A stretch of DNA of 64,000 bases from Marivita hallyeonensis (lineage in GTDB: Bacteria > Pseudomonadota > Alphaproteobacteria > Rhodobacterales > Rhodobacteraceae). The notes below the pieces were generated by a model. It searched no databases, was not told the DNA's origin, and was given only the letters and a program-made list of their open reading frames with translations. Every line of letters starts with the position of its first letter. Within the stretch, counting starts at the first letter, position 1. Where the stretch lies: assembly GCF_900129875.1 (NCBI RefSeq), contig NZ_FQXC01000001.1, positions 186,001-250,000 on the forward strand, given 5' to 3'. Below, one piece after another: positions 6,172 through 41,160 of this stretch. A program made the position numbers and the translations under genes.

Positions 6172-7302
6172 TCAGCCAACCTGCACGTGGGCACGCGCCT
6201 GCGATAGGCCGTATGTGGCCGGGAACGAAAGGTTCCCTGCGAGCAGTGCCGCGCGCAGCGTTTTTCTGCTCAGCACTTGTCGGGCGAGAGGACCGTACGC
6301 GTGTGTGACGTCCTCTATCGAGTCCGCGGCAAGAACGGATGGCCATTTGTGCTGTAACACGGCTGACCAGCCTAGGTCGGGGAAATTCCGCGTTTGCGGG
6401 CCGGGGTAGAGGCTTTCCACTTGAACACCGTCAGCGAATATCACCTCGTGTTTGTCGAACAGCAGATTGTAAAAGGTAATGTAGCGGATGCCTGCGGCAG
6501 GACGGATGCGCCCGTCGAATTCTTCGGCCAGGTGACGAGACACTGCGAAGACATCGCTTGGTCCTGATGGCGTGCTTATGCGGACCACTACACGATGCTG
6601 GGCCGAGAGCAGAAGATCGCGTGAGTTGCCTGCCGTTCCTGCGCGGATTTTGACCGGGCGTTTTTGGGGTGCGCCAATATCAGAGTTGAATGTTGCCTGT
6701 GACTTAGCGATCCAGCGGATGGGTTGGGGGCCGTGATCAACAGTTTCGACGATCCCCCCGACTTTTAGGCGTTCGATCGGCGTGTAGCCCCCTGGTGTCA
6801 GGATCTGGGTGCCGCGCGCGAGACAGATCATCTGCGCATACGGAATATCCGCATCCCGCGAGTTCTGCGCCGTGTTGGTGTATGTGACACCGTCAACCAG
6901 CGGTTCACTGAAGGCATAGACATCTATGTCGTCGAAGTTCTCGATCTCGTAGATGAAGATAGTTGAGCCATCGCTGCCCTCGAGCACGCCCCAACGGTCA
7001 GATGCGACAGCGCCGAATGTACCGACCTGGTTGCCATCGGGATCGTAAAGCGCGCCGGTTTCGCCGTCTGCGCCCTCGTTGTCGTTGTTTGGGCTGCCAT
7101 CGGTGTTGACCCCATCAGTATCGCCCGACAGCGTCGTGGTGTCGGCACCATTGTCGACGATCTGCATTGTGAACCACGGCATGGTTGCGGCGTCGTAAGT
7201 GAAGGTGCTGCCGGCGGTCGCGAAGGTGCCGTTGCTTCCCACCGTCCCGCCGCTGGCAAGCAGGTCAGTTTCGGTCAGGACCTGGATATTGAATGTGGGC
7301 AT
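6172..7302 (-). CDS. Hint (Hedgehog/intein)-domain protein, copy 1
   Basis: The 376-residue protein has an acidic, Gly/Asp/Thr-rich N-terminal region (1-158) with calcium-binding-like DxDGxxxxxN stretches, and a Hint domain from Cys160 (CLARGT). Block A is Cys160 plus TPIERLKVGG; block B is LLLSAQHR with His236; later comes DKHEVIFADGVQVESLYPG with His285. Cys at the junction and the block-B His are the residues that drive the N-S acyl shift in inteins and Hedgehog. No signal peptide is present; the acidic Gly/Asp head is compatible with type I secretion, but no RTX nonapeptides were found. A paralogue lies at 40003-41160. No clear ribosome site precedes the ATG. Confidence 0.85.
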   Translation of the reverse strand: MPTFNIQVLTETDLLASGGTVGSNGTFATAGSTFTYDAATMPWFTMQIVDNGADTTTLSGDTDGVNTDGSPNNDNEGADGETGALYDPDGNQVGTFGAVASDRWGVLEGSDGSTIFIYEIENFDDIDVYAFSEPLVDGVTYTNTAQNSRDADIPYAQMICLARGTQILTPGGYTPIERLKVGGIVETVDHGPQPIRWIAKSQATFNSDIGAPQKRPVKIRAGTAGNSRDLLLSAQHRVVVRISTPSGPSDVFAVSRHLAEEFDGRIRPAAGIRYITFYNLLFDKHEVIFADGVQVESLYPGPQTRNFPDLGWSAVLQHKWPSVLAADSIEDVTHAYGPLARQVLSRKTLRAALLAGNLSFPATYGLSQARAHVQVG

Positions 7303-39895: not shown

Positions 39896-40002
39896 GCCAC
39901 CGCCGGTTCGGCCTTCGGCGTCGAACACGGAAATTTACGAATTGCTGCGAAGTTTCGCCAATATTCCGTCCTAGACCTCGGGTCCCAGGATGGAGTTTGA
40001 GA

Positions 40003-41160
40003 ATGGCGTTACTTTCCTTCGACGGCAATCTGGTCGCGCAGGTGAACTCGTTCAACGACGATGGCCTTGGTGGAACCAACATTGAGGTTGACGACGTTGC
40101 AGATCTCGATGGCAATGGGAACCCGTACTACAACGCAACCGACACCATCCTGATCGAGATCGACGACACGGATATCGACGCCAACGGTGAGTTCATCGAA
40201 GCCGGTGCCGACGGCAAGATCACCGTCCTGTCGATCAAGGTGAACGGCGTTGAACTCCTCTCATCTCCGGACTACATCAAGTTTGGGGGTGGGTCCATCA
40301 CGGAAATGGGCGATGCCTATTTCTTCGTTGAAGGGCTGAAGCTCGCCTTCCTGTCGCCGGTTGTCGGATCGACTTTCGAAGATGCAACTGTTCAGAACGG
40401 CAAACTGACGCTCAACGTCCCGGAGCAGACCGGTGACTACGACCTCAATGAAAGCGGACAGGTCGATGGTGGGACCGCCGAAGAAGGCAACGGTGTCTTC
40501 AACATCTACACGTCAAACGTGGTGTGTTTCGTCAAAGGCACGCTCATCAAGACACCTACGGGCGACGTGCCAATCGAAAGACTGAAGCAAGGCGATCTGG
40601 TCGAAACACTGGACGGCCCGCCTCAGCCAATCCAGATGATCGTGCGTCAGTCTCTCGACTTTGCACATGGCAACGACACGCTTAAGCCGATTGAATTCAA
40701 GCCGGGCAGCCTTGGCGTCGGAAAGCCGAACCGCACGCTCAGTGTCTCGCCCCAGCACCGGATTCTCATAACTTCGCCTGAGCCCGTCGCGGGGAAGGGC
40801 GCATCTGCAACCTTGGTCGCTGCGAAAGGTCTTCTGCATCATCGCGGCGTCCGCCAGAAACGAGGGTGCAAATCGGTGGAATACTTTCATCTCGTGTTCA
40901 GCAAGCACGAGGTAATCTTCTCCGAAGGCGTCGCGACCGAGTCCTTCTTTCCCGGACGGGTTGCCATGGGAACGCTCAGCCCTGCCGCCAAGCGCGAATT
41001 CTTCGCCCTGTTCCCGAATTTCGCCCCCGTAAGTGATCAACAGCAGACCCCGGCGCGTCAGTTGTTAAGGGCGGGCAAGGCGCAAAAAACCTTTCCGAGG
41101 GGACGGACGGTCGAAGCCATCAATGGTCCGCGCAGCGCAATCTCCACCGTGGCCCACTGA
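40003..41160 (+). CDS. Hint (Hedgehog/intein)-domain protein, copy 2
   Basis: The 385-residue protein has an acidic, Asp/Gly/Asn-rich N-terminal region (1-173), then a Hint domain from Cys175 (CFVKGT). Block A is Cys175 with TPTGDVPIERLKQGDLVE; block B is LSVSPQHRIL with His252; the later SKHEVIFSEGVATESFFPG has His302. It aligns with copy 1 (6172-7302) across the Hint part, but the N-terminal parts are unrelated apart from composition. ATG 40003 is chosen because GGATGGAG is 7 bases upstream; TTG 39997 is an alternative. No signal peptide. Confidence 0.85.
   Translation: MALLSFDGNLVAQVNSFNDDGLGGTNIEVDDVADLDGNGNPYYNATDTILIEIDDTDIDANGEFIEAGADGKITVLSIKVNGVELLSSPDYIKFGGGSITEMGDAYFFVEGLKLAFLSPVVGSTFEDATVQNGKLTLNVPEQTGDYDLNESGQVDGGTAEEGNGVFNIYTSNVVCFVKGTLIKTPTGDVPIERLKQGDLVETLDGPPQPIQMIVRQSLDFAHGNDTLKPIEFKPGSLGVGKPNRTLSVSPQHRILITSPEPVAGKGASATLVAAKGLLHHRGVRQKRGCKSVEYFHLVFSKHEVIFSEGVATESFFPGRVAMGTLSPAAKREFFALFPNFAPVSDQQQTPARQLLRAGKAQKTFPRGRTVEAINGPRSAISTVAH

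Follow-up and report, generated by a model that had tools for sequence, protein, structure and literature searches.

We consider it reasonably likely that P0001, a 385-residue protein of the rhodobacteraceal bacterium Marivita hallyeonensis, is an exported precursor whose Hint_2 domain would break the Val174-Cys175 bond through a thioester. This processing is predicted from the modelled fold of the domain and from the catalytic-type residues found in it. P0001 belongs to a large, barely studied and already catalogued domain family, in which a single HINT domain stands behind many different heads. Its gene lies in a window of 64,000 nucleotides (contig NZ_FQXC01000001.1), the whole stretch of DNA analysed here, and its features are collected in Table 1.

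Table 1. Positions of the features of P0001 and of related genes (numbered along the window, unless a locus is named).
Feature	Position	Strand	Basis or remark
P0001 (copy 2), Hint_2 protein, 385 aa	40003..41160	+	ORF, ATG start, stop included
GGAG	39992..39995	+	7 bases 5' of the P0001 ATG
Head, residues 1-173	40003..40521	+	Acidic, Cys-free, without a recognised domain, modelled largely as beta strands
Residues 145-156, DYDLNESGQVDG, EF-hand-loop-like acidic stretch	40435..40470	+	Head-family alignment
Hint_2 domain, residues 174-316, HINT fold	40522..40950	+	Pfam, structure model
Cys175 codon, predicted nucleophile of N-S acyl shift	40525..40527	+	
SPQHR, residues 249-253, counterpart of TxxH motif (His252)	40747..40761	+	
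His302 codon	40906..40908	+	H in 124 of 125 rows
Glu313-Ser314, at the place of the intein terminal His-Asn	40939..40944	+	125-row alignment, structural ranges
C-terminal tail, residues 317-385	40951..41157	+	Short helices, fast-evolving in P0001 lineage
P0002 (copy 1), 376 aa, Hint_2 with a different head	6172..7302	-	
Choice-of-anchor-L Hint_2 / pseudo-Hint loci	L003:499-2070, L010:964-2043		Own genome, contig 13
Further choice-of-anchor-L / pseudo-Hint loci	L129, L135, L151, L160, L177, L192, L219, L227		

The reading frame of P0001 ends on the forward strand with a stop codon at 41158-41160. A TTG two codons before the ATG at 40003 is a possible alternative start, and the GGAG upstream is what we take to be the likely ribosome-binding site. 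Comparison with the ortholog L053 (71% identical) gave pN and pS values per site of 0.110 and 0.690 for the head, 0.163 and 0.801 for the Hint part, and 0.443 and 0.752 for the tail. Since pN is far below pS in the head and the Hint part, P0001 is a real gene; purifying selection acts on both parts, the tail being under looser constraint, and it is the head that seems to matter as the product.

The original prediction described P0001 as the second of two copies that have a Hint part in common behind different N-terminal parts. Both halves of this description hold for the two genes, which lie about 33 kb apart. P0001 matches the Pfam model Hint_2 (PF13403) at 150.3 bits (E 6.4e-44, residues 174-318, profile positions 1-146 of 147) and copy 1 at 116.4 bits (residues 159-301), against a curated cut-off of 28.4 bits. 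BLASTP aligns residues 167-318 of P0001 with 152-301 of copy 1 (35% identity, 156 columns, E 1e-27), the remaining pieces being chance matches (E at least 3.5). The heads have no BLASTP relation and reach hhalign profile probabilities of 0.1 and 0.3 percent, and are therefore unrelated as far as their sequences tell.

Structure prediction gave the HINT fold for the C-terminal region and no other. In the model of P0001 (71 aligned rows, overall pLDDT 77) the Hint part has pLDDT values, averaged by tens of residues, of mostly 77-98, with one loop at 61. Its best structural match with VIA-align is CthBIL4 (2lwy; Z 14.2, rmsd 2.0, 117 aligned); many inteins score a Z of about 11-14, and Hedgehog (1at0) a Z of 12.2 (rmsd 2.5, 121 aligned). 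A model of the Hint and tail of a paralogue has pLDDT 93 and pTM 0.87, is confident also in the last helix (179-189), and matches 2lwy with a Z of 15.2 (rmsd 2.1, 117 aligned). The predicted Cys175 (in VCFVKGT), SPQHR with His252 and KHEVIFSEG with His302 were all found at these residue numbers. Cys175 aligns with intein residue 1 and Hedgehog residue 258 according to the structural ranges. The marks of the HINT superfamily are thus present in P0001 as the predicted fold, Cys175 and SPQH252. Viral origin was considered as well and rejected: a Foldseek search against viral models returned giant-virus and phage Hint proteins as fold matches only, and a PHROGs search gave nothing convincing.

Conservation was counted on 125 aligned Hint_2 domains from this and related genomes. 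Here 23 of 148 Hint hits had been left out, 13 for a match start more than 3 positions from the Cys or for an open frame and 10 more for length. Position 1 is Cys in 115 and Ser in 7 of the 125, a Cys count that is biased upward by the removal of rows (8 of the 9 pseudo-Hint partners described below are among those removed). The sample has a bias as well, since genomes G001-G014 were chosen among the matches listed in a search that scored at most 12 candidates per genome. The His of the SxxH motif is kept in 121 and the second His in 124 of the 125 domains. At the end of the domain all 125 have Glu, with Ser or Thr as the next residue in 123, and the residue at -1 is Pro in 42, Val in 32 and Ile in 31 (105 together). 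Going by these residues and the model, Hint_2 is predicted to keep the N-side chemistry of the fold. As the terminal His-Asn is replaced by Glu and Ser/Thr, Asn cyclisation is excluded.

Comparison with known systems places P0001 within Hint_2. It is a full-length member with all motifs of PF13403, and only the head is particular to its subgroup; among the HINT models no other matches at E up to 1, PT-HINT (PF07591) included. The terminal His-Asn and C-extein nucleophile of inteins were not found in P0001, which has Glu313-Ser314 there; Ser314 ends its match to MchDnaB-1 at position 145, and a related entry carries N145 in its title. Given the missing terminal Asn, P0001 can neither splice nor cut itself on the C-side by the intein route. 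BIL domains have the HINT fold in common with Hint_2 and provide the top structural match. A-type BIL domains, however, conserve a C-terminal His-Asn, as stated in the accessible part of PMC7765530, where Hint_2 has Glu-Ser/Thr. B-type BIL domains are described as keeping the intein motifs except the C-terminal one, and the pattern of Hint_2 would agree with that description.

With the Hedgehog (Hog) domain Hint_2 has in common the HINT fold, Cys1, a TxxH-type motif (SxxH in Hint_2), the lack of a terminal Asn and a stretch that continues C-terminally beyond the Hint part. Residue -1 is Gly in Hedgehog and Val, Ile or Pro in Hint_2. The Hog domain is further marked by the general base D303 and by C400, according to the portion of PMC9163320 available to us. 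Counting residues between the ends of the structural ranges, no column of the matching Hint_2 stretch has Asp as its commonest residue, and Cys occurs in 1 of the 125 rows at the place of C400. As neither residue has a counterpart, Hint_2 is not a Hedgehog domain. A further Hint-type domain occurs in a secreted RTX protein from a bacterium of the same family, YP_168868 of Ruegeria pomeroyi; the accessible text of PMC2953401 describes its internal intein-like region, none of whose peptides was found outside. In that account the region is located towards the N-terminus and has VHN as its last residues, which marks it as another Hint type.

The original prediction counted two copies, which proved to be an undercount. 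The Marivita hallyeonensis genome contains 11 PF13403 matches, ten of which cover essentially the whole domain; the eleventh is partial, and the protein that carries it (L011:1180-2115) also has DUF4347 and matches PT-HINT below the cut-off, a different Hint type. Of the genomes sampled within the order, 145 of 148 are positive for Hint_2. Across the phylum 35 of 299 sampled genomes match, 15 of them from the same family; among the matches listed, those from other parts of the class are mostly strong and those from outside it weak.

The heads are diverse: 120 heads of at least 40 residues fall into 46 BLAST clusters. Among the 119 heads of at least 60 residues that were scanned for domains (six shorter than 60 were left out), 28 have RTX repeats, 12 choice-of-anchor L, 10 Big_9, 6 LTD, 2 PA14 and 2 VWA domains, and one each a lectin, nidogen, cadherin-like or CBM domain. 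The 12 choice-of-anchor L proteins (NF038133) do not include P0001. The head ends have a median net negative charge of 11.5 per 100 residues, against 0.8 for 469 control ORFs, and 93 of 115 are free of Cys, against 162 of 469 controls. Acidic, Cys-poor ends and domains of extracellular type speak for an extracellular place. The heads of P0002 and P0008 align at 31% in MAFFT but only at E 14 in BLASTP; an iterated profile joins both with 15 other heads.

The head of P0001 itself has 31 Asp and Glu, 5 Lys and Arg and zero Cys, and a Pfam scan recognised no domain in it. Directly before the Hint domain an EF-hand-loop-like stretch reads D-Y-D-L-N-E-S-G; its D145 and D147 are invariant in the 9 rows of the head-family alignment, and the head probably binds calcium, judging by this motif. 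A PDB sequence search with the head profile returned weak rows only, and fold searches with the P0001 model were filled by the Hint part and say nothing of the fold of the head. Near relatives of the head are few (L053 with 83% and L051 with 58% head identity). The only named orthologs found (L245 and L246) come from an uncultured Rhodobacteraceae bacterium and from Candidatus Halocynthiibacter alkanivorans, with unlike neighbourhoods. These two loci share no neighbours with the window: setting aside the gene itself, their matches to it are weak and of paralogue type.

A nine-row profile detects a wider P0001 head family in 30 of 244 genomes of the order, including P0004 in the own genome. The suggestion that each copy has a head of its own is thus correct with respect to copy 1, to whose head that of P0001 is unrelated, and incorrect in that P0001 and P0004 belong to one head family. 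For 27 of the 31 head-family matches listed, the fetched stretch shows the Hint part continuing in frame behind the head; among these, L085 has a stop codon inside the head. The frame leaves the fetched stretch in the other four (L082, L088, L093, L094), and for one of these, in G005, a Hint match lies within the same 946-aa frame. Wherever the frame could be followed, the P0001 head family precedes Hint_2.

To what extent heads and Hint domains mix was read from a Hint-only tree (125 rows, 64 of 122 forks open), in which P0001 has no firm position. Head labels change far less often along it than after shuffling: 8 times against a mean of 21.3 for RTX, 2 against 11.2 for choice-of-anchor L, 1 against 10.3 for the P0003 type and 1 against 7.7 for the Ser type, with LTD closer to the shuffled mean (4 against 5.9). 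The treatment of unlabelled rows matters here, as leaving them out or counting them as negative gives 8 or 22 changes for RTX and 2 or 3 for choice-of-anchor L. Pairings of head and Hint are mostly inherited, and the tree forces no swap; at its poor resolution single origins of the head types may hold as well. Of the modular family proposed originally, the part that stands is one HINT domain behind many heads; free mixing finds no support in the tree. P0003 (L001:1348-2412, own genome) represents a Hint_2 type with a length of about 355 aa. Its head cluster counts 11 members among the sampled sequences, which make up a single starred branch of the tree, and a conserved single function is likely for this type.

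The tail behind the Hint part is less constant, with 39% and 26% identity within the P0001 lineage. A tail profile built from the 115 Cys copies reaches at least 10 bits in 111 of them, which are its own training rows, in 1 of 9 pseudo-Hint partners, and in none of the 7 Ser copies, 2 Ala copies, 8 class relatives with other C-termini or 1282 control ORFs. The tail was therefore discarded as a catalytic marker, the counts showing that it neither follows nor excludes catalysis. Seven loci (L231-L236 from G602 and G844 of the same class, and L237 from G821) have about 150 residues after Hint_2 that are unlike the short tail, mostly behind long heads.

Several Hint_2 copies deviate at the catalytic-type residues. 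In 9 of 12 cases, a choice-of-anchor-L Hint_2 gene is followed on the same strand by a second, touching or overlapping Hint_2-like gene (in stop-to-stop frames); the chosen reading frames of the pair in the own genome, P0005 and P0010, overlap by 4 bases. Inspection by eye showed neither the Cys nor the SxxH His in any of the nine partners, and these pseudo-Hint partners are predicted to be catalytically dead. No mention of the pairing was found in the open-licence papers searched. Two of the ten own-genome copies, P0009 and P0010, lack the Cys. P0009 (L018:8125-8916) and L156:4434-5237, from two genomes of different genera, are short, have Ala at the positions of Cys1 and the SxxH His, and are without the tail motif. 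Ser replaces Cys1 in a group of apparent orthologs (7 of 125 rows: L139, L155, L164, L184, L200, L207, L229), and the corresponding head cluster of eight is one starred branch on the tree.

The original prediction also proposed a search for a type I secretion operon. With PrtD and HlyD-type proteins of this genome as queries, tblastn against 128 sequences (the window, the own copies and 120 loci taken from other genomes) gave 19 rows, none above 120 bits, and no adjacent operon. Linked secretion genes are common for RTX substrates of type I systems but not obligatory, and in this genome contig 18 carries a PrtD-type gene and contig 9 a TolC gene (at 897 kb), which makes an unlinked system available. 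Export of P0001 would take place without a signal peptide, most likely by such an unlinked type I system. PrtD-type genes occur in 19 of 19 genomes checked, including three without Hint_2, and co-occurrence is therefore uninformative. In 18 of these 19 genomes RTX repeats were found with an E of at most 1e-8, and a search for RTX nonapeptide repeats in P0001 gave no match. The heads at L239:4412-5323 and L240:4298-5260 start with an Arg-Arg motif and a hydrophobic stretch, presumably a Tat-like signal, and some Hint_2 proteins may consequently go to the periplasm.

In the mechanism that we favour, P0001 would be made as a surface or extracellular precursor consisting of an acidic, probably calcium-binding and beta-rich head, the Hint_2 domain and a helical tail. 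Once Hint_2 has folded, Cys175 would attack the Val174-Cys175 bond, assisted by Ser249/His252 and His302, to form a thioester, from which water or another small nucleophile would then release the head. In the open-licence literature searched no experimental test of the family was found. In intein chemistry a Val, Ile or Pro at -1 favours slow cleavage. The chief arguments against a simple, fast cleavage are these residues and the persistence of Cys-less copies. Both also fit the idea that Hint_2 no longer cuts and instead serves export or binding as a folded module at the C-terminus, its Cys and His being kept for structure or slow chemistry, and so does the weak tail signal of at least 5 bits kept by 5 of the 9 Cys-less partners, against 9 of 1282 controls. 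We regard this as unlikely, given that 122 of 125 domains have Cys or Ser and that the two His are kept in 121 and 124, and as Ser is an intein nucleophile too, according to the accessible part of PMC7664689.

A related option, which we rate as rather improbable, is that the thioester escapes hydrolysis and is handed on, as in Hedgehog, to an acceptor (a lipid, a sugar, or a protein amine or hydroxyl), with Hint_2 and the tail acting as a self-removing anchor signal for the head. Hint_2, like Hedgehog, keeps the N-side and loses the C-side chemistry, the last tail helix is modelled confidently together with the Hint part in the paralogue, and choice-of-anchor L and C heads stand before Hint_2 (the name of these families refers to varied anchoring ends). 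Against it, D303 and C400 are not kept, the tail evolves quickly in the lineage of P0001, and in G602 and G844 a different C-terminal stretch takes its place. We know of no acceptor for the Hint_2 thioester. A pretoxin-type Hint, which in polymorphic toxins frees a toxin at the C-terminus, is very improbable, since apart from the fold and the sub-cut-off PT-HINT match at L011 nothing points to it: Hint_2 is C-terminal with a short tail behind it, and P0001 and the 119 heads contain no toxin domain once hits owed to shared RTX repeats are set aside. That Hint_2 is a remnant of an intein or mobile element, which has the same fold in its favour, is scarcely credible for a C-terminal domain with ten diverged paralogues in one genome and neither terminal Asn nor C-extein.

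Release of the head through a thioester remains our preferred reading, and its interest lies in the distribution of the domain, as Hint_2 occurs very commonly in a major family of marine bacteria. Plasmid records annotate such proteins as 'Hint domain-containing protein', and the literature is thin, PF13403 being named in only two of the open-licence papers searched. According to the available portion of one of these, PMC12487129, Hint and RTX domains are over-represented in fast-responding Rhodobacteraceae. As a distinctly speculative extension, Hint_2 and the tail might be a bacterial counterpart of the Hedgehog ending that passes heads to a cell-surface acceptor, with the pseudo-Hint partners controlling or receiving the reaction. 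Rhodobacteraceae would then possess a sorting module in about ten copies per genome, with calcium-binding and adhesin-like heads and with dead partners supplied by overlapping genes. If either cleavage or acyl transfer is true, it would explain how many surface proteins without known sorting signals are released or fixed, and Hint_2 would be a source of C-terminal cleavage tags.
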